Part shown: positions 7,281-19,953 of the stretch, piece after piece
Layout of the letters: the number at the start of each line of letters is the position of its first letter
Position numbering within the stretch: the stretch's first letter is position 1
DNA from: an uncultured Christensenella sp.
Lineage (GTDB): Bacteria; Bacillota; Clostridia; Christensenellales; UBA1242
DNA: 33,555 nucleotides
Assembly (NCBI GenBank): GCA_949294585.1
Contig: CASFHZ010000029.1
Location: 1-33,555 of the forward strand
Direction: 5' to 3'
Notes under the pieces: generated by a model
Database searches by the model: none
Seen by the model: only the letters and a program-made list of their open reading frames with translations
What the model was told of the DNA's origin: nothing
Program-made: the position numbers and the translations under genes

Positions 7281-8918
7281 ATGCAAAAGTCAATTAATGG
7301 CGCTATTTTTAGAAAAATGATTATCGGAGGAGTTTCGCTCCTCGACCAAAATAAACAAGTTGTTGATTCATTAAATGTTTTCCCTGTACCAGATGGTGAT
7401 ACTGGTACAAATATGTTTTTAACAATGAAGTCTGCAGGAAATGAGGTAAATAATTGTCCTGATAACACACTTTTAAACTTATGCGAAGCTTTCGCAAAAG
7501 GTGCATTAAGGGGGGCAAGAGGAAATTCTGGTGTTATTACATCTCAAATTATCAAAGGTTTAACAAAATCTCTTTCCACTGTTGAAAACATAACAACAAA
7601 AAATTTTGCAAAGGCAATGATGGAAGGAAGCAAAGTTGCTTATAAAGCCGTTACAAAACCAAAAGAAGGAACAATTTTAACTGTTATTAGAGTTATGAGT
7701 GAACAAGCAGTTGAAATTGCAAAAAAAGTTTCTGATCTTGAAGAGTTTTTTAAGTTAGTTATTGAAAAAGGTGAAGAAGTCCTTCAACAAACACCTGAAA
7801 TGTTGCCAGTGTTAAAAAAAGCTGGAGTTGTTGATGCAGGTGGCAGAGGTTTAATCATTATATTCACAGGATTCTATAAAGCTCTTATTGGTGAAGAAGA
7901 TTTTAATGTTGTTTTTGAAGATGGACAACCAGTTCAAACAGCAGATGATGTTATAGCTGATATAAACAATCTTGCTGATATTGAATTTGGATATTGCACT
8001 GAATATATGATTATTAATATGCACAAGAAAACAACTGAGGCAGATATTGAAAAACTAAAAGAAAAACTTATGCAAATAGGTGATTCAGTTCTTTGTATTG
8101 GTGATTTATTGCTTGTAAAAGTTCACGTTCACACAAATCAACCAAACTTAGCTCTTGGTTATGCACTTGAACTTGGTGAACTTTATAATTTAAAAATTGA
8201 AAATATGCGTGAGCAAAACAGAGAACTAAAAAAGAAAGCAGGTCAAAAACAAGAAAATCTTAAAGAATTAGGTATGGTTTCTGTTGCTCCTGGAAAAGGT
8301 ATTGCAGACCTTATGAAAGATTTGATGATTGATGAAATAATTCAAGGTGGGCAAACAATGAATCCAAGTGCTGCAGATATTGCAACAGCTGTTGACAAAG
8401 TTCCTGCAAAAACTGTTTATGTTTTTCCTAACAACAAAAATATTATACTTGCCGCAGAGCAGGCAAAAGGTCTTACAACCAAAAATTTAATTGTAATACC
8501 AACAAGAAGTGTTCCAGAGGGTATTTCGGCTTGCTTGGCATTTAATCCAGAAGCATCTATTGAAGAAAACACGGAAAGTATGAGTAATGCTTATACAAAT
8601 GTAAAAAGTGCATCGGTAACATATGCTGTTAGAGCTACTCACGTTGATGGATTTGACCTATCAGTTGGTGAAGTTATTGGTCTGGACGATAAAGCAATTT
8701 TGGCAAAAGGTAATCTTGTTAACCCAACAACAGAGGATTTAATATCAAAAATGATAGATGAAAGTGTTGTTAGTGTTACACTTTTCTATGGTGAAGACGT
8801 AAAACAAGAAGATGCTGAAGCACTTAGAGATGTTTTGGCACAAAAATACCCTGAGTGTGAAATAACTGTTATTGATGGTGGTCAACCAGTTTATTACTAT
8901 ATAATTTCTATGGAATAA
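7281..8918 (+). CDS. fakA: Fatty acid kinase subunit A / DAK-domain protein YloV
   Basis: The 545-residue protein has an N-terminal DhaL-like kinase domain with the ATP/Mg-binding motif PVPDGDTGTNM (35-45) and the GARGNSGVI helix about 40 residues later. A central domain and a C-terminal DegV-like region follow. FakA phosphorylates fatty acids presented by a separate DegV-type FakB protein, so that exogenous or recycled fatty acids can enter phospholipid synthesis. No fakB is in this window. Length and order after yloU match Bacillus YloV. AGGAG overlaps the yloU stop codon. In many Firmicutes sda genes or recG follow; here the giant surface-protein operon starts instead, marking the edge of the accessory region. 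Confidence 0.9.
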   Translation: MQKSINGAIFRKMIIGGVSLLDQNKQVVDSLNVFPVPDGDTGTNMFLTMKSAGNEVNNCPDNTLLNLCEAFAKGALRGARGNSGVITSQIIKGLTKSLSTVENITTKNFAKAMMEGSKVAYKAVTKPKEGTILTVIRVMSEQAVEIAKKVSDLEEFFKLVIEKGEEVLQQTPEMLPVLKKAGVVDAGGRGLIIIFTGFYKALIGEEDFNVVFEDGQPVQTADDVIADINNLADIEFGYCTEYMIINMHKKTTEADIEKLKEKLMQIGDSVLCIGDLLLVKVHVHTNQPNLALGYALELGELYNLKIENMREQNRELKKKAGQKQENLKELGMVSVAPGKGIADLMKDLMIDEIIQGGQTMNPSAADIATAVDKVPAKTVYVFPNNKNIILAAEQAKGLTTKNLIVIPTRSVPEGISACLAFNPEASIEENTESMSNAYTNVKSASVTYAVRATHVDGFDLSVGEVIGLDDKAILAKGNLVNPTTEDLISKMIDESVVSVTLFYGEDVKQEDAEALRDVLAQKYPECEITVIDGGQPVYYYIISME

Positions 8919-9002: not shown

Positions 9003-9019
9003 TATTGACAAAGTCAATA
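9003..9019. promoter_or_regulatory. Dyad operator-like site I
   Basis: The perfect inverted repeat TATTGAC-AAA-GTCAATA is centred at 9011, about 110 bp upstream of the predicted start of transcription of the surface operon. It shares TTGACAAAGTCAATA exactly with site II. The symmetry suits a dimeric winged-helix regulator of the MarR type, but the regulator is not identifiable here. Confidence 0.6.
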
Positions 9020-9043
9020 TTTATTTTTACTGCATTTGTTTTG

Positions 9044-9058
9044 TTGACAAAGTCAATA
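9044..9058. promoter_or_regulatory. Dyad operator-like site II
   Basis: This is the second copy of TTGACAAAGTCAATA, 39 bp downstream of the first, with the dyad TTGAC-AAA-GTCAA centred at 9050. It lies upstream of the -35 element, a position that suits an activator or cooperative binding rather than simple occlusion. TTGACA is also a consensus -35, but no -10 lies at the correct distance from either copy. Confidence 0.6.
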
Positions 9059-9085: not shown

Positions 9086-9114
9086 TTTACATTTTATATT
9101 TATTAGTATATAAT
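9086..9114 (+). promoter_or_regulatory. Sigma-A promoter of the giant surface-protein operon
   Basis: TTTACA (9086-9091), 17 bp, then a perfect TATAAT (9109-9114). The predicted start near 9121 gives a leader of about 46 nt. Confidence 0.75.
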
Positions 9115-9166: not shown

Positions 9167-12100
9167 ATGAAATATATAAGTAGAATTTTCACAGTGCTTA
9201 TTGCACTGTTTGGTATAGTTATTTTTTTTGGGTGTGGTGAAAAGCCACCTGAAACATTTTCAATATCTGGTTATGTACTTGAAGATGGTGTTGGTGTTAG
9301 TGATGTAACACTTTCATCTGATGTTGGCAATGTGACTACAGATGAAAATGGTTTTTTTATTTTTTCTGACATATCAAATGGTTTAACAATTGAAGCTCAA
9401 AAAGAGGGATATACTTTTGAAAAAATTTCGCAAACATTTTTTGGTGCAACAACAAATGCAACATTTATAGCACATAAATATTATGACATAACTGGCAAAG
9501 TTGTTAGTAATGGAATTGGTATAGAAGGTGTAAAAGTTACTGCAAGTGCGTTAAAAGGTGGATACACTGTAACTAACAATAGTGGTGAGTTTGTGTTGTA
9601 TAACATTGCTGGAAATGCCACACTAAGTGCAGAAAAAGCAGGTTTTGTGTTTTTTGAAAAAACCTGTTCTCACGAAACTAGTCAAAATATTCAAATTACA
9701 GCAACGACAAACTGCAATATTAACATTGATTATTGTGGTTTAGCAGGTGATTTTGCCAGTGATACAAAAGTTTTTGTAAATAACAGTGAAGTAAATGTAA
9801 CAGGTAATAGTTTTGTATTAGAAAATTTAACATTTGGTACCAAAATTTCGTTAAGCAATGATTTTGTTAAGTTTGAGCCTAATCAAGTTATAATATCAAA
9901 AGAAAATCAAATAATTAATTTTGTTGGTGAAAAAATATATTCAATTAGTGGATTTGTAAAAAGTGGAAGCACTGCATTAGGTAACGCACTTTTAAGTATA
10001 GGAGAAATAACAACATTTTCTAATTCACAAGGTTATTTTACATTTGATAATGTAACAGGAGAAAATACTGTTTGTTGCAGTGTTGATGGATTTGAGTTTA
10101 ATAATATTGTATGCAATGAAGCAAACAACTCAATTGAATTTCAAGGCACAACATCTTTATTTGGAAGAATTACAAACAATGGTAGTGGTTTTGCTGGTGT
10201 AAATGTAATTAGCAAAAAAATGACTTCAATATCAAATGCTGATGGTTCATTTGAATTACATAATTTGCAGTTAGGTGATGTTGTAAATTTTGAATGTAGC
10301 ACTGCAAAACTAAGTGTTGACGCAACAACTGTTTTAGAGGCAAATAAGTTTATCGAAGTTACTGCACAAAATTATTACAATGCAACAATATGTGTTGTTG
10401 ATGATTATGGTGAAAGTTTAAACAATGTAAACATTACACTTAATAATAATATTTTTGTCACAAATCAAGATGGAATTGTTGAATTAACCAATTTATTTGG
10501 TACAAATTACTGCAATATTGAACTTGATGGCTATAAGGCTTTACAAAATGTTGAGATTGGTGAAAATCAAAATGTTTATAACATAGTTTTGCAAAAGTTA
10601 TATAATGCTTCAATTACATTAAAAACTGGAGATATAGTATTATCAAACAAACAAGTTGTAATAAACGAAGAAACTTATTCTACAAATGAAAATGGTGAAA
10701 TTTTATTTAATAATTTGTTTGGAGAATTAATATTTAACATATCTTGCGAGGGATATAATAATATTTCAATAAATACGAACTCAAAAGATTATAACAAAAA
10801 TGTATCATTAACTTATAATATAAGTGGTTATGTAAAAAGTGGTAATGTTTTTGTTCCTGATGTAAAAGTCAGCTATGATGATAATTTTGTTTTAAGTGAT
10901 AAAAATGGATATTTCACAATAACAAATTTGGAAGGACAAATTGAAATTACATATTATAAAGAATTTTATAATTTTCAAACTTCAAGCATTGTTTCATCAC
11001 AAGATAATAATATTATTGTTGAAACTTCGTATAAAGTTTTTGGTTATGCAATGAGTGATGACTTGGGGTTATTTAACACTCAGATAATAATAACAAGCAG
11101 TAATGATGAAAACAATTTATCTGTTTATACAAACCAAGATGGATATTATGAATTTAATAATATTTATGGCGAAAATGTGTTGTTTTATGTAAATGCTGAT
11201 GGTTTAAAATTAAGACCACTATCTTATAGCGTTTTAGCTGGCGGACAATATGATTTTATGCTTAATGGATATGAGCTTGGAGGATATGTTCTTTCAAATG
11301 GTGAACCTGTTGAAGATGTTAAAATATCAGCAGGAGAAAGTGTGACATACACAAATGAAGATGGTTTTTATTATTTTAATTTGTTAAAAACCGACTGTGA
11401 AATTATGGCATATAAAGAGGGTTACAGTTTTACACCAAACACCATTTCGGTAACAACTGATGACAATGAAAGAAAAGATGTCAATTTTGAGGCAAGTTAT
11501 ATTTTTGAGGGTTATATACTATGGGGTGATAAACCTGTTGATGATGTGGCAGTTAGTGTTGGAGATAATAGCACAACAACAAATGAATTAGGTTATTTTA
11601 AGTTTGATTCAATTGTTGGAACAAATGAAATTTGTTTTTCAAAAAATGGTTATGAAATTAAATATTCTAATGACATTAAAGGTTATGTAAATTTAAAAAT
11701 TCAAGCAGGTGCGATTATAACTGGTGTGATTTTGAGTGGTGATTTACTTGTTGGAGATGTTGATGTAAAATTAGGTATAGTAACAACAAAAACAAATGAA
11801 AGTGGACTTTTTGTTGCAACGGTATATCAAAACAATTTTGAAATTGAATGTGTAAAAGAAGGATTTAGTTTTGATACTTCAAACTTTGCCATAAAAGCTG
11901 GTGAAAAGCAAAGTATTTCAGCTTCTTATTCTATTAGTGGAATTGTCAAATCATCTGATATTTTAATTAATGATGTTACTATAAAAATTAATGATGAAGA
12001 AACAAATTATAAATCTGAAGTAAATGGTACATTTAACATAATAAACTTAACAGGTACAACAACACTATCTTTTGAGAAAGATGGATATCAAATTGATAGG

Positions 12101-13822
12101 ATAACAGTAAATGAACCGGGTGAAATTGTTGCTAACGCAACATTTAGTGTATATGGTTACATAACATTTAATAATTCTGGATTAAAAGATATAACTGTTT
12201 CTTCAAATGGCAACAGTGTTTTAACGAATGAAGATGGTTATTACATTATTTCAGGACTTGTTGGTAGTGGAAATTTAACAATTGAAAAAAATGGTTACAA
12301 TTTTGTTGGTGAAAAAACTTATGCTGGATATTGTCAATTAGATTTTAATGCTTTATTTACTATAAGTGGAGTTATTAAGTCTGGCGAAACAGTTTTGACA
12401 AATGTAAATGTAAAATACGGTGACAATGAAACATTAACTAATGAAAATGGTTACTTTTATATGGAAAATATAGCATATGCTGGTGAAATTGAATTTTCAA
12501 AAACAGGTTATAACACTTTAACAAAAACTTATTTCGAATATTGTGAAAACGATATTATTAATTTATCATACAACGCAACAATAATATTCAATGGTTTAGA
12601 TAATTATGAAAATATTATAATTTCTGTTACAAATGAACAAGATGAAGAGAGTATTTACAATTCATCAAATTCTAGATACACAATTGAAAATATAAGTGGA
12701 GAAATATATGTGTCTTTGTCAAAAACGGGTTATGTGTTTAATCCACAAGTATTTGCGATAAAATCACCAACAGCAATTTCTGTTAATGTTAATAAATCTT
12801 ATTCCGTTAGTGGAAAAGTTTTAATTGATGGAACCAATGTTCCAATTATTGGAATGAAAGTTTCTGCGGGAAATGAGGTTGCTTATACAGATTCAAATGG
12901 TTATTATGTGTTAAACAATTTAGTTGGAAAAACAGTGATAAAAGGTGAATTGAGTTATGATAATTGTATAACAATTTCAACATCTTCAATTCAAGTGTCA
13001 GGTGAAATTGTTCAAGATTTCACTGTTTCAGCACTCGACTACACATTCTTTATGTTCCAAAAAGGATATCAACTATTAGAGGAAGCAAATAGTTCATATG
13101 TAAGTATGAACGGAACAGTTTCTTTAACTATGGGAGGAACACAACAAGTTAGAGGAATAAGAAAAAGAGATTCAAATGGCATAACTTTAACAGAAAAAAT
13201 GAATTATGGCAACAGTGTTGCAGGTATTGACCCAAAAGTTTCTCTTTTAACATACTACAACAGAAACACTGGCGAAACAAAATATCAACAAGTAAAAAAT
13301 GTTAGTTCTGACTATGTCGCAACTTACGGCAGTTTTACAAATACTTCTGCAAGTGAGTATAAGTCACTATATGGGTTGTATCCATACGATCATTATGCAT
13401 ACATAATTAACAAGTCCACAATAACAAGTGTTAACAACATAGTAAAAGATGGAACAAATACAACATTTACATTCAATTTAAACACAGGAACAGCTGTTTC
13501 AAACTACATAAAACAAATGTCATCTCTTTCAGGTCAAACTCCATCAAAATTCAACTATTGCAATTTGACTTACACAATTGGCGATGATGGATATATTAGG
13601 ACTTTAAAAATAAAAGAAGAATATGTAATTAATGTAGTTGTTTCTGTTACAGGGACATCTGAAATAACAGAAACTTATATGATTACAGATAAAGATACAA
13701 AATTAACAGACATAAATCTAAACGATATTCACAAATCGTTGGAGTTTGAGGTAAAGACAAATGAAAATAATGTTTTGTCAATGCCAAATAAAAAATTTAG
13801 TTTAAAAGGGGAAGAAAAATGA
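9167..13822 (+). CDS. Giant surface lipoprotein with about 17 carboxypeptidase-regulatory-like repeats
   Basis: I do not recognise this as a named protein. The 1551-residue product starts with a lipoprotein signal peptide: MKYISR, a hydrophobic stretch, then FFGC with Cys23 as the likely lipidated residue. From about residue 32 to 1288 it consists of about 17 tandem units of 70-80 residues, following I-S-G-x-V ... V-x-V ... T-N-x-x-G-x-F/Y-x-F-x-N-L-x-G ... K-x-G-Y/F. This pattern fits the CarboxypepD_reg / SpaA-like beta-sandwich families. Units 3, 6, 7 and 16 are the most divergent. Residues 1289-1551 form a different, non-repeated C-terminal domain. The ribosome binding site is weak (AGAG). 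The stop overlaps the next start as ATGA, so the two are coupled. A membrane-tethered stalk carrying a terminal binding or scaffold domain is inferred. Confidence 0.8.
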   Translation: MKYISRIFTVLIALFGIVIFFGCGEKPPETFSISGYVLEDGVGVSDVTLSSDVGNVTTDENGFFIFSDISNGLTIEAQKEGYTFEKISQTFFGATTNATFIAHKYYDITGKVVSNGIGIEGVKVTASALKGGYTVTNNSGEFVLYNIAGNATLSAEKAGFVFFEKTCSHETSQNIQITATTNCNINIDYCGLAGDFASDTKVFVNNSEVNVTGNSFVLENLTFGTKISLSNDFVKFEPNQVIISKENQIINFVGEKIYSISGFVKSGSTALGNALLSIGEITTFSNSQGYFTFDNVTGENTVCCSVDGFEFNNIVCNEANNSIEFQGTTSLFGRITNNGSGFAGVNVISKKMTSISNADGSFELHNLQLGDVVNFECSTAKLSVDATTVLEANKFIEVTAQNYYNATICVVDDYGESLNNVNITLNNNIFVTNQDGIVELTNLFGTNYCNIELDGYKALQNVEIGENQNVYNIVLQKLYNASITLKTGDIVLSNKQVVINEETYSTNENGEILFNNLFGELIFNISCEGYNNISINTNSKDYNKNVSLTYNISGYVKSGNVFVPDVKVSYDDNFVLSDKNGYFTITNLEGQIEITYYKEFYNFQTSSIVSSQDNNIIVETSYKVFGYAMSDDLGLFNTQIIITSSNDENNLSVYTNQDGYYEFNNIYGENVLFYVNADGLKLRPLSYSVLAGGQYDFMLNGYELGGYVLSNGEPVEDVKISAGESVTYTNEDGFYYFNLLKTDCEIMAYKEGYSFTPNTISVTTDDNERKDVNFEASYIFEGYILWGDKPVDDVAVSVGDNSTTTNELGYFKFDSIVGTNEICFSKNGYEIKYSNDIKGYVNLKIQAGAIITGVILSGDLLVGDVDVKLGIVTTKTNESGLFVATVYQNNFEIECVKEGFSFDTSNFAIKAGEKQSISASYSISGIVKSSDILINDVTIKINDEETNYKSEVNGTFNIINLTGTTTLSFEKDGYQIDRITVNEPGEIVANATFSVYGYITFNNSGLKDITVSSNGNSVLTNEDGYYIISGLVGSGNLTIEKNGYNFVGEKTYAGYCQLDFNALFTISGVIKSGETVLTNVNVKYGDNETLTNENGYFYMENIAYAGEIEFSKTGYNTLTKTYFEYCENDIINLSYNATIIFNGLDNYENIIISVTNEQDEESIYNSSNSRYTIENISGEIYVSLSKTGYVFNPQVFAIKSPTAISVNVNKSYSVSGKVLIDGTNVPIIGMKVSAGNEVAYTDSNGYYVLNNLVGKTVIKGELSYDNCITISTSSIQVSGEIVQDFTVSALDYTFFMFQKGYQLLEEANSSYVSMNGTVSLTMGGTQQVRGIRKRDSNGITLTEKMNYGNSVAGIDPKVSLLTYYNRNTGETKYQQVKNVSSDYVATYGSFTNTSASEYKSLYGLYPYDHYAYIINKSTITSVNNIVKDGTNTTFTFNLNTGTAVSNYIKQMSSLSGQTPSKFNYCNLTYTIGDDGYIRTLKIKEEYVINVVVSVTGTSEITETYMITDKDTKLTDINLNDIHKSLEFEVKTNENNVLSMPNKKFSLKGEEK

Positions 13823-16800
13823 AAAATAAAATAATAAAAACATCATTAATAACATCAATTTGTTTATGTATTTTTTCTATTTTCTTTCCTTTTATTTTAG
13901 AGGATAACGAAAATGTTTTGGCAGAAACAATAAATCAGGCTCAACAAATTACACTTGAAAATCTTGGAACATATTATTTGTATCCAAATAATAATGGAGT
14001 TAATTCTATATGCGATTATTTTGAGTATAGAACAGATAAAAATAATTGGGAAAGAAGGGATAATGAGTTATATCATAAGTATAAAAGTAGAATGCAAATA
14101 ACAAGTGAAACAACAAAATTTATCTCTACAATAAATTTATCAGATGCTTTAAAAAATGCTGGAAAAAATGGATATTTATCTGTTTCTGCAAGTGCTTATT
14201 TTGCATCTGAATATGGCGGAAAAATATTTTTTGTAGATGATAGTGTTGATGAACTTAGAATGAGTTTAAGTTCAATCACATCTTCTGGTGAAGTTGTTTC
14301 AACAAATTCTGTTGACTACACATCTTATGACTACAGTGAAACACCTTTTGTTTTAAATATAGATGTTAACAGTGGTGAATATTTACAACTTAAATTTGAA
14401 GAGTTATATGGTAAAACAGTATATGAGATTATGCGTGTTAAAGAACCAACAATAACTTTAACATCTTCAGATGTAACTGCACCAACAGTTAGCATTTCAA
14501 AAAATGTTGAAGGGTTTGTTAATAACAGAACAATAACATTAACTGTAAAGGATTTGGAGTCTGGAATTTTTTCTGTTGAGTGCGATAACGCAACACTAAA
14601 AGAATATTCTATTCAAGAAGATACAAAAACTGCAACATACACTTATGAAATTACAGAAAATGGTGAGTACAATTTTAAAGTTACAGACAATGTTGGAAAC
14701 ACACTTCAAACAAGTTACACAGAAAGCGAGATTGATAAAGAAAAGCCAAGTTTAGTTTTTGTTAATGGAATTAAGGATTTGTATTATACAAAAACAATTT
14801 CATTTGAAGCAACATATGAGCAATCTTTTAACAGCTCTAATGAATATTTTGTTTATACAATTGATGGCACAACACCAAATGAGAATAGTCCTGTTTTAGT
14901 GAATGGAACTAATGAAATTGAAGTGCAAAACAATGGTGAATATACTTTAAAAATTTTATCTTTTGATGAGGCTGGCAACTATAATGAAATTCAAGAATTT
15001 GCCTTTTATGTTGATGATAGTTATTATAGTATAAATATAACATCTTCAAATGGTGGGGATGTACCCCCATCTATTGATAATTTAAGGTATAAAGACATAC
15101 AAACAATATCGTTTAGTTGTCAAGATGGATATCAATTTTACTATGTTTCTGTTAATGGTGAAAAAATTGAAACAGATGGCAACAGTATTGAAATAGAGGT
15201 TACTCAAAACATTGATGTATATTTTGCATTTAGAAAAATAGTAAATGTTGTTCTGTTAACAAATTCATATTCATATACTGGTGAATTTGTTGAATTAAAT
15301 TTCACTAGTAACATAGATGACAATTCACTAATTGTTTTTGAATTTTATAAAAATGATGAGCAATGCGATTTCATTGAAGAGGGTGAATATCAAATTTATT
15401 ACACCATAGAAACAGAAGAATATATAGGAAGTGGTTCACTTAACGCAAACATAACAAAGAAAAATATTGGATATGTCTCATTAAATACAACTTCTTATGT
15501 TTATAACCCAAATGGTTTAACTCTTGATTATTCATCTAATGTTGAAGAAAGTGAAATAGTATTCACTTATTACTTAGCAACAACTATGGAAATTGTTACG
15601 CCAATAAATGTAGGCGATTATATTCTTGAATATAGTATTTCAAATAATGAGTTTGTTGGAAGTGGGATTTTAAGTTTTAATATTACAAAAAAAGAAATTG
15701 AAATTAAAGTTGAACAGTCTAATTTTATATATGATGGTTACATTAAAAATTTGGTAGTTTCAAATGATTTGAATTTGCAAATGCAAACTAAATATTTTTA
15801 CAACAATGAAGAAACACAACCTATAAATGCTGGAAGCTATTCATATAAAGTTGTAATAATAAATGACAATTACACAGGAACAATAACTGGAGAATTTTTA
15901 ATACAAAGAGCAAGTGTTGATATTTCAATTAATGATGATGTATTAATTTATGATGGGCAAATAAAATCACCTAGTGTACAAATTTCAAACAATCACAGTT
16001 ACACAATATTTATTTTGCAAAACGACTATTTAACAAATTCTATTAATGCAGGAGAATATGTTTTAAGAGTTGTTGTTGATGAAGAAAATTATTTTACTGA
16101 AAAGTTTTTTAATTTTACAATACAAAAACGACCAATTGTTGTTTTGGCACAAAACAAAACCATAACATATGGTGAAGATTATGGCGAATTAGTTTACACA
16201 ATAGAAAACGATATAAAATCGGATAACTTAATGTTTGACTTATATGTAAAAGATTACTCTGTAAATGTTGGCGAATACCAAATTGTTATCAATCAACAAA
16301 CATTAGAAAATTATAGTGTTGACTATAAAAATGCAACATTAACTATACAGCAAAAAGAGATTGATGTATTTATTGCAAATGATAATCAAAAAACATATGG
16401 TGAAAAAGACTCTGAAATTAGATTCACCTATGACACAGAAGATGTAATGTATAATGATATTTTGGAATTTTCAATTGAAAGAGAGTCTGGAGAAGATGTT
16501 GGAAGTTATGCAATAAACATAGTTAGTGTAAACAATTCCAATTACAAAGTTAAATTAACATCTTTTTCATACAAGATTAACAAAAGAAAAGTTGTAATAA
16601 AGCTTGATGATGTTGAAAAAATATATGGCGACTCGGATCCAGAATTTAGTTATGCATTGTATTATGGAAATATTGTAGGCAATGATGTTCTTATTAATTC
16701 ATACACAAGAGAAGAAGGTGAAAATGTTGGTGAATATCAAACATCACTACTTGAAACTAATGAGAACTATGAAATAATTTACATTAATGGAACTCTTGAA

Positions 16801-18450
16801 ATAAAACCAAAAGAAATTAATGTAGTTGCAGATGACATTAACTCAATCTATGGCGAAGAAGAAAAACAACTAACATATACTGCAAATTTATTAAATGACG
16901 ATGTTTTGGAAGGTGAATTATTTAGAGAACAAGGCACTAATGTTGGCGAATATTTAATAACAATTGGTACATTGCATAATAATAACTATTCAATTAATTT
17001 CACAGGTGCAAAATATATAATTGGAAAAGCAATATTAAATGTTAGTGCAAACGCAACAGTGAAGTTTTATGGAGATGCTGACCCAGTATTAACATATACA
17101 ATAAACGGCTTTGTAAACGATGAGTATTTTGATATTAACCTTGTTCGACAATCAGGAGAAAATATTGGCTCATATGAAATAATGCTTGGAGAAAATGATT
17201 TACAAAATTATAATATCAACTATACTGCAAACTTGTTTACAATCTCCAAAAAACCAATCACATTAACTTTTGATGTAAATCAAAGTAAAAATTATGGCGA
17301 CATTGATCCAGAAATTAAATATTCACTAAGCATAATTGACATTCCAGGAGATTTGAAAGTTTACAGGGAAGAAGGCGAAGATGTTGGTGAATATAAATTA
17401 TGTGTTGAATCAAATGAATTAGAAAATTATGTTATAACAAATATTAATGATTGTTATTTCACAATTAATAAAGGGAATATAAATATTTCATTAAATGATG
17501 CAACATACACATACGATGGAAATACACATAGTATATCAATAAATGAAGATTATGATGTCGAGTATGTTTATTATCAAAACGGAATAGAAATAACTCAACC
17601 AGTTAATGCTGGCGAATATATGGTTATTGCAATATTTACTGGCAACGAGTGTTATAATAAAACACAATCAAACTTTGCAACATTGACAATTGTTAAAAAA
17701 TCAGTTTTTATTACTGTTGAGCAAGATTTATATGTTTATGATGGAAATGCAAAATTGCCTAAATTCACTCTAAGCGAAGATTGTTCGGCAATTGTTGAAA
17801 TGGATACGCTTAATGCTGTTGATATTGGTACTTATCCTTTTGAAATAGTTGTTAACGAAGCAAACTACACAGGCTCAATAAAAGGTGAGTTAAAAATTAT
17901 TGAAGCACCTGTTTTTGAAAATGAAAGTGGAAATCAAGTTTATGATGTAAATGGTGATTTAATAACACATAATGTTTCTGTGGTTCTATGCGAAGATAAA
18001 TCAAATAAAACACTATCTAACTTAAATCAAATGCTAACTTCGAAACAAGCAATATCTTCATATTCGTTTGATGTAAACGGTGAATTAAATGCAAATACAA
18101 CCGTTGTTATTAGATTAAATGTGGATAGTGCCGAAAACCTGAATGTATTTTTGTATAATGACCAAAACGAAATAAAAGAAGTAGGTTATAAAATAGAAGA
18201 TGGAAAAATTGTTTTTGAAATATCAGACTTGTCTTTAAAATTTATGCTTGCAAAAGAAAATAATGGTGCATCTTGGCTATTTTATGTCGCAATTGGTGGT
18301 GGAATAATAATTGTTATTATTGTTGCTTGGCTTTCTATAAAGATGTACATTTTTGTTAAGAAAACGCTAAATAAAGATAAGGAAGAAAAACAAATTTTAA
18401 AAAGCAAAAATGCTAAAAGGTTTAAACACAAAAAAGAATTAAACAAATAA
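13819..18450 (+). CDS. Giant membrane-anchored surface protein with MBG/YDG-type repeats
   Basis: This is a probable adhesin-like protein of 1543 residues with no specific name. A signal peptide covers about residues 1-36. An unassigned N-terminal domain (40-210) is followed by Ig-like/chitobiase-type segments (215-400, including IDGTTPNENSPVL) and an InlB B-repeat-like unit (about 402-475). Residues 475-1365 hold about 12 units of roughly 74 residues. Four have the Y-D-G-type start with N-A-G-x-Y, six are MBG_2-type (K-x-Y-G-D-x-D-P-E ... R-E-x-G-E-x-V-G-x-Y), and two more are Y-D-G type. A transmembrane helix (about 1485-1508) and a Lys-rich cytoplasmic tail end the protein. There is no LPxTG signal, so anchoring is by the membrane helix, not sortase. 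Translation is coupled to the upstream lipoprotein gene by a 4-bp overlap. Confidence 0.8.
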   Translation: MKNKIIKTSLITSICLCIFSIFFPFILEDNENVLAETINQAQQITLENLGTYYLYPNNNGVNSICDYFEYRTDKNNWERRDNELYHKYKSRMQITSETTKFISTINLSDALKNAGKNGYLSVSASAYFASEYGGKIFFVDDSVDELRMSLSSITSSGEVVSTNSVDYTSYDYSETPFVLNIDVNSGEYLQLKFEELYGKTVYEIMRVKEPTITLTSSDVTAPTVSISKNVEGFVNNRTITLTVKDLESGIFSVECDNATLKEYSIQEDTKTATYTYEITENGEYNFKVTDNVGNTLQTSYTESEIDKEKPSLVFVNGIKDLYYTKTISFEATYEQSFNSSNEYFVYTIDGTTPNENSPVLVNGTNEIEVQNNGEYTLKILSFDEAGNYNEIQEFAFYVDDSYYSINITSSNGGDVPPSIDNLRYKDIQTISFSCQDGYQFYYVSVNGEKIETDGNSIEIEVTQNIDVYFAFRKIVNVVLLTNSYSYTGEFVELNFTSNIDDNSLIVFEFYKNDEQCDFIEEGEYQIYYTIETEEYIGSGSLNANITKKNIGYVSLNTTSYVYNPNGLTLDYSSNVEESEIVFTYYLATTMEIVTPINVGDYILEYSISNNEFVGSGILSFNITKKEIEIKVEQSNFIYDGYIKNLVVSNDLNLQMQTKYFYNNEETQPINAGSYSYKVVIINDNYTGTITGEFLIQRASVDISINDDVLIYDGQIKSPSVQISNNHSYTIFILQNDYLTNSINAGEYVLRVVVDEENYFTEKFFNFTIQKRPIVVLAQNKTITYGEDYGELVYTIENDIKSDNLMFDLYVKDYSVNVGEYQIVINQQTLENYSVDYKNATLTIQQKEIDVFIANDNQKTYGEKDSEIRFTYDTEDVMYNDILEFSIERESGEDVGSYAINIVSVNNSNYKVKLTSFSYKINKRKVVIKLDDVEKIYGDSDPEFSYALYYGNIVGNDVLINSYTREEGENVGEYQTSLLETNENYEIIYINGTLEIKPKEINVVADDINSIYGEEEKQLTYTANLLNDDVLEGELFREQGTNVGEYLITIGTLHNNNYSINFTGAKYIIGKAILNVSANATVKFYGDADPVLTYTINGFVNDEYFDINLVRQSGENIGSYEIMLGENDLQNYNINYTANLFTISKKPITLTFDVNQSKNYGDIDPEIKYSLSIIDIPGDLKVYREEGEDVGEYKLCVESNELENYVITNINDCYFTINKGNINISLNDATYTYDGNTHSISINEDYDVEYVYYQNGIEITQPVNAGEYMVIAIFTGNECYNKTQSNFATLTIVKKSVFITVEQDLYVYDGNAKLPKFTLSEDCSAIVEMDTLNAVDIGTYPFEIVVNEANYTGSIKGELKIIEAPVFENESGNQVYDVNGDLITHNVSVVLCEDKSNKTLSNLNQMLTSKQAISSYSFDVNGELNANTTVVIRLNVDSAENLNVFLYNDQNEIKEVGYKIEDGKIVFEISDLSLKFMLAKENNGASWLFYVAIGGGIIIVIIVAWLSIKMYIFVKKTLNKDKEEKQILKSKNAKRFKHKKELNK

Positions 18451-18478: not shown

Positions 18479-18511
18479 CAGACTGTAGACAAACTACAGT
18501 CTGTTTTTTTT
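18479..18511 (+). terminator. Inward-facing terminator at the left end of the IS
   Basis: The left inverted repeat forms a 10-bp perfect stem, CAGACTGTAG / CTACAGTCTG with an ACAAA loop, followed by eight T residues (18504-18511). It would stop read-through from the surface operon before the transposase promoter. Confidence 0.85.
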
Positions 18512-18555: not shown

Positions 18556-19953
18556 ATGTTAAAAAAAGTAGAAGATAATAGAAAACAAATTGAACTAATC
18601 TGTCTTGAACAATTGGTTCCACAAGAACATTTGGTTAGAAAATTAGATAATGCTATTGACTTTAGTTTTATCTACAATGAGGTCAAAGATTTGTATGGAG
18701 ATGTCGGTAGAGGCAGTATTGACCCTGTCTCTTTAATTAAAATTGTACTTGTACAATACATGTTTGGTATTAAAAGTATGAGACAAACAATTAAAGAGAT
18801 AGAAGTAAATGTTGCATACAGATGGTTCTGTGGTTTTGGATTAACTGGAAGTGTTCCACATTTTTCTACCTTTGGTAAGAATTATGTAAGAAGATTTAAA
18901 GATAATGACATATTTCAAAAGATATTCAATAAAATTTTATCTGAAGCAATACAATGTGGGTTTGTGGATACTAAAGCAGTATACTTAGATTCTACTCACA
19001 TTAAAGCAAATGCTAATAGAAAAAAGAAGATAGAAGTATATGTACAAAAAGAAACAAAGAATTACCAAAAGACATTAGAAAGAGAGATAAATGAAGATAG
19101 AATAAACAAAGGCAAGAAAGAATTTGAAGATAGAGATGACAACGATACACACAAGATAACGAAGAGTACAACAGACCCAGATGCTGGAGAGTTTCACAAA
19201 GGTGAACATGAGAAAATGTTTGCATACTCAGCACATACAGTATGCGATACAAAAGGATTTATACTAGAATGTGAAGTAACACCAGCAAACAAGCATGACA
19301 GCACAATGTTTTCTAAGATATTTGAGAAGATAAAGAAGAGATATACATTTAATTACATAGGTTTGGATGCAGGATACAAGACACCAGCAATAGCAAAAGA
19401 GATAATAGAAAGTAATGTACTACCGTTAATGCCATACACAGCACCAAGAAGTAAGAAGTTTGAATACAATAAATATTATGACTATTACATTTGTCCAAAC
19501 GGGAACATATTAGAACATACAACAACAAATAGATTGGGATATAGAGAATATACCAGTGATGCAAGTATGTGCAAACAATGTCCAAACCAAGAACAATGCC
19601 TATCTAAGACACAGAAACATAAAACAATGTTTAGGCACTTATGGCAAAAGTATATAGATAAAGTAAATGAGATACGGCATACCAAGATATGGAAAGAATA
19701 CTATCCAAAGAGAAGCGAGACAATAGAACGAGTATTTGGAGATGCAAAAGAGAAACATGGTATGAGATATACACAATTAAGAGGGAAAGAGAAAGTAAGT
19801 ATACAAGTCTTACTAACTTTTGCGTGCATGAATTTAAAGAAATTAGCGAATTGGAAGTGGCAAAACACAGACAAAACCAAACAAAAACACACAATAATTA
19901 ACAAAATACAAAAAATATTAGAGAAACTCACTCTTTTTAAACAATTTGCATAA
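18556..19953 (+). CDS. IS1182-family-like DDE transposase
   Basis: The 465-residue transposase has the N-terminal DUF772-type domain (about 40-115, including PVSLIKIVLVQYMFG) and an RNase-H-like catalytic domain. The probable acidic triad is Asp145 (YLDSTHIKAN), Asp271 (IGLDAGYK) and Glu391 (ETIERVFGDAKE), followed by the GMRYTQLRG segment. Cys313, 339, 342 and 348 form the Cys cluster common in this family before the final Glu. No frameshift or stop interrupts it, so it is probably functional. There is no Shine-Dalgarno before the ATG, and the promoter position suggests leaderless translation. Confidence 0.92.
   Translation: MLKKVEDNRKQIELICLEQLVPQEHLVRKLDNAIDFSFIYNEVKDLYGDVGRGSIDPVSLIKIVLVQYMFGIKSMRQTIKEIEVNVAYRWFCGFGLTGSVPHFSTFGKNYVRRFKDNDIFQKIFNKILSEAIQCGFVDTKAVYLDSTHIKANANRKKKIEVYVQKETKNYQKTLEREINEDRINKGKKEFEDRDDNDTHKITKSTTDPDAGEFHKGEHEKMFAYSAHTVCDTKGFILECEVTPANKHDSTMFSKIFEKIKKRYTFNYIGLDAGYKTPAIAKEIIESNVLPLMPYTAPRSKKFEYNKYYDYYICPNGNILEHTTTNRLGYREYTSDASMCKQCPNQEQCLSKTQKHKTMFRHLWQKYIDKVNEIRHTKIWKEYYPKRSETIERVFGDAKEKHGMRYTQLRGKEKVSIQVLLTFACMNLKKLANWKWQNTDKTKQKHTIINKIQKILEKLTLFKQFA

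Follow-up and report, generated by a model that had tools for sequence, protein, structure and literature searches.

Two adjacent stalked surface proteins of an uncultured Christensenellales bacterium form a conserved gene pair with a possible role in lipid capture

The stretch of DNA analysed here (33,555 nt, referred to as the window) is one contig of an uncultured Christensenella sp. whose assembly comprises 1.03 Mb and is 96 percent complete. Its YloV protein shares 88 percent identity with that of the record 'Christensenella sp. UBA1242', Candidatus Caccovivens and other gut Clostridia being among the related records. The window carries two giant genes, designated A and B, on the forward strand, to which all window positions given below refer. 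Gene A (9167-13822) encodes a predicted stalk lipoprotein of 1551 aa, anchored at its N-terminus, with a lipobox and matches to Pfam CarboxypepD_reg. Gene B (13819-18450) encodes an MBG stalk protein of 1543 aa with matches to Pfam MBG_2/MBG_3 and a predicted membrane anchor at its C-terminus. The stop codon of A and the start codon of B share 4 nt in an ATGA overlap (13819-13822). An original prediction, made from these letters only, had described both open reading frames and their overlap, which were present as claimed, and had proposed that the products were partner stalks of an undescribed surface system. We found that A and B are paired across genomes, a conclusion that we hold with near certainty, and that each protein bears a non-repeat head domain overlooked in that prediction, located around residues 1287-1526 of A (the C-terminal domain, CTD) and around residues 47-216 of B.

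The distribution of the pair was analysed in a set of 309 genomes from 42 genera, of about 1 Mb each, which very likely corresponds to the GTDB family UBA1242 of the Christensenellales. A-type CTDs were defined as those in open reading frames of ~1495-1593 aa, and B as matches to its N-terminal domain at E < 1e-40. With these definitions, A-type CTDs and strong B matches were found in an identical set of 17 of the 309 genomes (chance probability 2.6e-28 assuming independent genomes, which these are not). B was located directly downstream of A on the same strand in all 16 intact loci that could be checked, with gaps ranging from -8 to +103 nt and with overlaps of 4 or 8 nt in several of these pairs, and a further adjacent pair was present in a 2.5 Mb genome of another family (G610). 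The co-occurrence expected of partner stalks was thus observed. In a first search among 99 relatives, full-length A had appeared in six genomes, with B adjoining it except in G058, where the pair was split across contigs, A being cut by a contig end and B starting another contig. The pairs span five genera plus a second family, and the genes flanking them differ between genera; the pair therefore stays together while its surroundings change. Within the genus of the window, G013 and G015 carry it between yloV and rpsB, and a sister record (L151) with yloV and rpsB 194 nt apart presents a clean empty site without A-B. The label "undescribed" also held as far as could be tested, as no Pfam family covers the A head and no paper on such a surface pair was found in the literature.

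Signals around the genes were in agreement with the single shared promoter that had been proposed. A candidate promoter for the A-B operon (TTTACA-17-TATAAT, 9086-9114), with 11 of 12 consensus positions matched and the best in the region, is placed 5' of A. An AAAGGGG-type ribosome-binding site for B, AAAAGGGGAAG, was read off the sequence at 13804-13814, no terminator was found when looked for at the A/B junction, and an intrinsic terminator with a 10-pair stem and a T run follows B (18479-18503). Promoter and terminator are consensus matches and no proof of a transcript, and they leave room for a promoter of B's own. Two exact copies of the near-palindrome TTGACAAAGTCAATA (9005-9019 and 9044-9058; 9005-9058 as a whole) precede the promoter and may constitute an operator. 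They are the sole exact forward copies across the 1.03 Mb assembly, and none was present upstream of A in one sister species; when up to two mismatches were allowed, TTGACAAAGTCAA matches within the window occurred in a chance-level number, the exact pair alone standing out genome-wide. Directly 3' of B, at 18556-19953, the window contains an IS1182 transposase in the place occupied by rpsB in the pair-bearing sister species. In two genera and in the second family, genes for related regulators of ~195 aa, with a helix-turn-helix and membrane helices, were found in divergent orientation directly upstream of A (L058 4970-5542, L108 1719-2315, L109 14612-15211, L110 800-1399, L114 14843-15427, and L134 13711-14292).

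Searches with iterated hidden Markov models (HMM) yielded exactly 17 carboxypeptidase-regulatory-like units in the stalk of A (residues 31-1279, 9257-13003; 8e-43 versus Pfam CarboxypepD_reg) and 12 MBG units, each scoring at least 28 bits, in the stalk of B (residues 475-1366, 15241-17916; 1.8e-61 for MBG_2 and 7e-23 for MBG_3), numbers that had been put at about 17 and 12. The signal peptide of A carries a plausible lipobox (FFG-C23), and the lipobox cysteine was present in 14 of the 16 pairs, the other two genomes (G282 and G284) having a plain N-terminal membrane helix with no cysteine; a lipid anchor is accordingly not essential for A. A itself being helix-anchored in those two genomes, the functional contrast earlier drawn between a lipid anchor and a helix anchor was not sustained. 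B starts with a signal peptide and ends in a membrane helix (18280-18360, from the sequence and the C-termini of relatives) followed by a basic tail. No LPXTG-type sorting signal was found in the translation or C-terminus of B, so that the reported absence of a sortase motif stood, whereas the sortase gene, reported as absent too, was not searched for genome-wide.

The near-equal size of both proteins, previously taken as a sign of matched stalks, proved to be partly chance. Across the 16 pairs A measured 1562 ± 19 aa and B 1603 ± 193 aa (range 1259-2022), with a correlation of r = 0.38. The number of units scored without overlap by iterated HMM was nearly constant in A (16-17), whereas B had from 8 to 17 MBG units. 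Moreover, in distant relatives many units of A had their best match in the unit of equal position (for example 9 of 17 in G325 and 10 of 17 in G029). Given this near-constancy of length and unit number together with the position-matched units, A can be likened to a ruler whose length is fixed, which sets it apart from the usual repeats of adhesins; B is not ruler-like. This bears on the main alternative considered in this work, according to which A and B would be the two subunits of an adhesion or cell-cell contact complex, with an A head that is structural, binds protein or grips a membrane or lipid surface, and with no cargo moved. Adhesins typically have repeats in their stalks and a head of lectin-like type, but their repeats usually vary in number and those of A hardly do.

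The A head (13025-13744) is contained in the last 265 residues of A, and its fold was predicted by AlphaFold2 on an alignment of 15 relatives (alignment A1), giving a model with pLDDT 88 and pTM 0.84. When compared by VIA-align, for which Z values below 8 may be due to chance and a common fold proves no function, the top matches were LppX (Z 11.9 over 171 residues, 3.9 Å), LprF (10.3) and LprG (10.1), followed by LolA and RseB, mostly at Z 8-9.5. Foldseek alone gave weaker, mixed matches with LolA-superfamily entries among them. On the strength of these models, the CTD very probably has a LolA-type fold, a half-barrel of strongly curved beta-sheet; binding of hydrophobic ligands is the common property of the LolA/LppX superfamily (PMC6363788). 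RseB and MucB were among the structural matches at Z 7-9, and the CTD might accordingly be a sensor or regulatory domain with the fold of LolA, as in RseB, by which A would sense how B or the envelope is assembled or whether it carries ligand. Such a role would be consistent with the regulators found upstream of A in several genera and with the combination of the CTD with giants of several architectures, but no sigma or anti-sigma genes were recognised in the inspected neighbourhoods, and A, which has an outer stalk, shows no evident domain for signalling; we consider a sensor improbable.

The head of B (13957-14466) is predicted to be a galactose-binding-like jelly roll. AlphaFold2 modelled residues 36-318 of B, aligned with 15 relatives (alignment A2), with pLDDT 85, and VIA-align placed the head closest to the sugar-binding domain of Fbs1 (Z 11.2 over 143 residues, 2.8 Å), CBM22 (10.7-9.5) and CBM4 (9.1), MAM and Eph receptor domains being also in the list. 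An Ig-like domain comes next after the jelly roll. From these models, binding of a glycan by the B head is plausible.

The CTD was not restricted to A. It was detected in 174 of the 309 family genomes, mostly as a single copy, and at most one of the 17 genomes with an A-type CTD gave a second CTD hit (6.6e-5 if genomes were independent). Outside A it forms part of proteins of ~300-550 aa with an N-terminal helix. Four small CTD proteins (L062, L066, L075, and L149) displayed a long extra N-terminal part, across the membrane helix from the CTD, which was methyltransferase-like in L075, the sole one scanned. In nearly all the inspected family loci with a downstream gene on the contig, the small CTD gene was followed by a giant of ~950-4150 aa containing a 175-aa repeat in 1-16 copies and, in many cases, InlB-type repeats at its C-terminus (for instance L072 9158-15148, L073 5268-14825, and L120 626-11689). 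The exceptions to this order were G052, with an LRR protein, and G306, where a second CTD gene stands beside another gene. The 175-aa repeat has no Pfam family, and the idea that these repeats are copies of the CTD was rejected because profile similarity was absent in both registers, a common fold being still possible. In families f13, f15, f20, and f32 one polypeptide comprises both the CTD and the 175-aa repeats. Such a fusion argues well for a joint action of the CTD and the product of the neighbouring gene, and by analogy for a joint action of A and B.

The same arrangement could be explained if the CTD were a chaperone and A a dedicated chaperone or assembly partner, keeping the next giant soluble or folded during export. 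The coupled synthesis of A and B and the position of CTD genes ahead of MBG giants, 175-aa-repeat giants and one LRR protein would fit with it; on the other side, A has a 17-unit stalk of its own, and in other families CTD and giant form a permanent fusion; we judge such a function improbable as well. Two observations on the small CTD genes may be added. Short genes that resembled by eye those of REP-associated transposases (RAYT) lay directly upstream of them in several genera (L072 16130-16906, L074 13857-14612, and L123 12060-12821), the one scanned having no NCBIfam match. In addition, a weak CTD match (~1e-11) with no adjoining giant gene was found at L265 7184-8131, in a member of the genus without A-B (G009).

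A hint at function came from the relatives of the A head in family f6, in which the CTD is a small lipoprotein. A DegV/FakB gene was present in 18 of the 20 f6 CTD loci examined and lacking in two; its distance to the CTD match was 0.9 kb or less in 14 cases, 2.3 kb in three (with a second CTD-like gene nearer) and 3.6 kb in one. The f6 genomes are related, and these 18 loci do not represent 18 independent events. Downstream of the CTD gene, locus L146 contains genes for two PAP2 phosphatases, an AMP-binding enzyme and an FGGY kinase, other f6 loci being similar; the AMP-binding enzyme was nearest to long-chain-fatty-acid-CoA ligases, although under every curated cut-off shown. The two f6 DegV proteins scanned were above the cut-off for DegV and below that for FakB1. 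DegV proteins have been described as the FakB partners of FakA (PMC11617999, PMC9136124, and PMC10138225). The f6 CTD locus is likely a lipid-uptake locus in its own right. As to gene order, in L146, L147, and L250-L263 the CTD lipoprotein genes are divergent from the DegV/FakB genes and upstream of the PAP2, acyl-CoA-ligase-like and FGGY genes.

The lipid-carrier fold of the A head, taken together with relatives near fatty-acid-uptake genes, favours lipid capture over a role confined to adhesion. The adhesion or cell-cell contact suggested in the original prediction is possible but incomplete as an account of the pair, since the head of a pure adhesin would oddly be related to small lipoproteins whose genes, in another family, adjoin those for FakB, PAP2 and acyl-ligase-like proteins. 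An adhesion complex is nevertheless in accordance with the partner-dependent lifestyle proposed for UBA1242 (PMC12306168), and no transporter was recognised beside A-B; all points considered, we see it as possible, though doubtful.

A need for external fatty acids was examined through FabF, which was undetected in 307 of the 309 family genomes, including the source genome, the control search being positive in 14 of 14 control genomes. The source genome has three DegV/FakB genes and, directly upstream of A and outside the operon, a homologue of the fatty-acid kinase YloV/FakA (7281-8918), with 612 bits for TIGR03599 YloV (above the cut-off) and 530 bits for NF038248 FakA (below its cut-off of 975). 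Begmatov et al. described UBA1242 as lacking lipid biosynthesis, its metabolites coming probably from other cells, and named hypothetical membrane proteins that might serve in transport or contact (PMC12306168).

These data are compatible with a tentative model in which A and B are the paired parts of a surface apparatus for capturing lipids or glycolipids, which feeds a cell without FabF through FakA/FakB; we give it serious weight, while placing it somewhat short of an even chance, and lipid capture by A-B, taken by itself, is again a tentative proposal that we would not yet call probable. Both proteins would be exported and fixed in the cytoplasmic membrane, each by the end opposite to that used by the other, as physically contacting subunits of one apparatus at the cell surface. 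With an N-terminal anchor in A and a C-terminal anchor in B, both heads would face outwards, A carrying its C-terminal LolA/LppX-like head on the 17-unit stalk and B its N-terminal jelly-roll head on the MBG stalk. The glycan bound by the B head would belong to mucus, to a host cell, to another microbe or to a glycolipid, and from the surface on which B has docked the A head would take a hydrophobic cargo, be it a fatty acid, an acyl-lipid or a glycolipid. The cargo would then reach the membrane and supply the FabF-less bacterium with exogenous fatty acids for FakA/FakB.

Several facts weigh against this model. The pairing of the genes is directly observed, whereas lipid handling, the A-B complex and its localisation are what we infer. 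Neither LolA nor LppX_LprAFG of Pfam was matched, up to an E-value of 10, by the A C-terminus or by the small CTD proteins, no sequence relatives of the CTD were detected in the PDB, and LolA-like folds act also as sensors (RseB) and enzymes (VioE). Jelly rolls are common and bind proteins as well, and the Eph receptors share the match list of the B head. With a stalk of this length, it is hard to see how cargo would be passed on to the membrane, and no transporter was recognised among the immediate neighbours of A-B, which were read by eye and partly scanned. FabF is one single marker of fatty-acid synthesis, and the CTD was undetected in 135 of the 309 family genomes though nearly all of these lack FabF. 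Order-wide (CTD at E < 1e-8 and FabF at < 1e-20), FabF was present in 12 of 101 genomes with the CTD versus 62 of 295 without it (Fisher p = 0.05, kinship uncorrected), and a strong tie of the CTD to FabF loss was rejected, as the P-value is only 0.05. FakA stands beside A-B just in the genus of the window, where it is also present without A-B; a functional cluster of both was rejected because a sister species keeps FakA there in the absence of the pair.

When compared with known systems, the A head is like the mycobacterial LppX, LprF and LprG and like LolA (Z 8-9.5) in predicted fold, and shares with the LppX/LprF/LprG lipoproteins an N-terminal lipid anchor in 14 of 16 pairs; LprG is reported to affect triacylglyceride handling (PMC4709180). 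It differs from LppX, LprG and LolA in giving no sequence-profile match, in its position on a 17-unit stalk, in its pairing with a lectin-like stalk protein and in having no recognised transporter gene beside it. B resembles the MBG-repeat surface proteins of Gram-positive bacteria in its MBG_2/MBG_3 repeats, signal peptide and C-terminal membrane helix, but shows no LPXTG and possesses a specific jelly-roll head and a partner, A, that was constant in the genomes searched. It also differs from sortase-anchored adhesins by ending in a membrane helix and a basic tail. Isd haem uptake is a surface relay for a hydrophobic nutrient in a Gram-positive cell, and A-B would work alike as surface proteins taking up such a nutrient; however, the folds differ, no transporter was seen and the proposed cargo is lipid, and an Isd/NEAT-like uptake was rejected since the NEAT domain was absent from the Pfam scan. 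Finally, FakA/FakB form an intracellular route for exogenous fatty acids, with FakA encoded upstream of A and FakB-type genes by the f6 CTD lipoproteins. These proteins are cytoplasmic, whereas A-B would be an extracellular front end of which no description was found.

For UBA1242, a gut lineage with reduced genomes that is as yet uncultured, dependence on partners and a lack of lipid synthesis are on record, with no known means of acquisition (PMC12306168). A-B and its sister modules provide named genes and, with the CTD and the 175-aa repeat, two domain families that are undescribed. Adhesion without cargo, if true, would make the pair a new variant of known surface proteins. A broader proposal, that single-membrane genome-reduced gut bacteria possess a new class of lipid-acquisition machines in which long paired stalks dock by a lectin head on mucus or another cell and a LolA-fold head extracts its lipids, with a sister class formed by the CTD and a chain of 175-aa repeats that is split between two genes in one family and fused in others, is in our view unlikely at present. 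If the A head does bind lipid and the B head a partner's glycan, the pair would show how a Gram-positive cell takes the lipids of others, and the outer surface of monoderm cells would become a site where the LolA fold is borne on long stalks.

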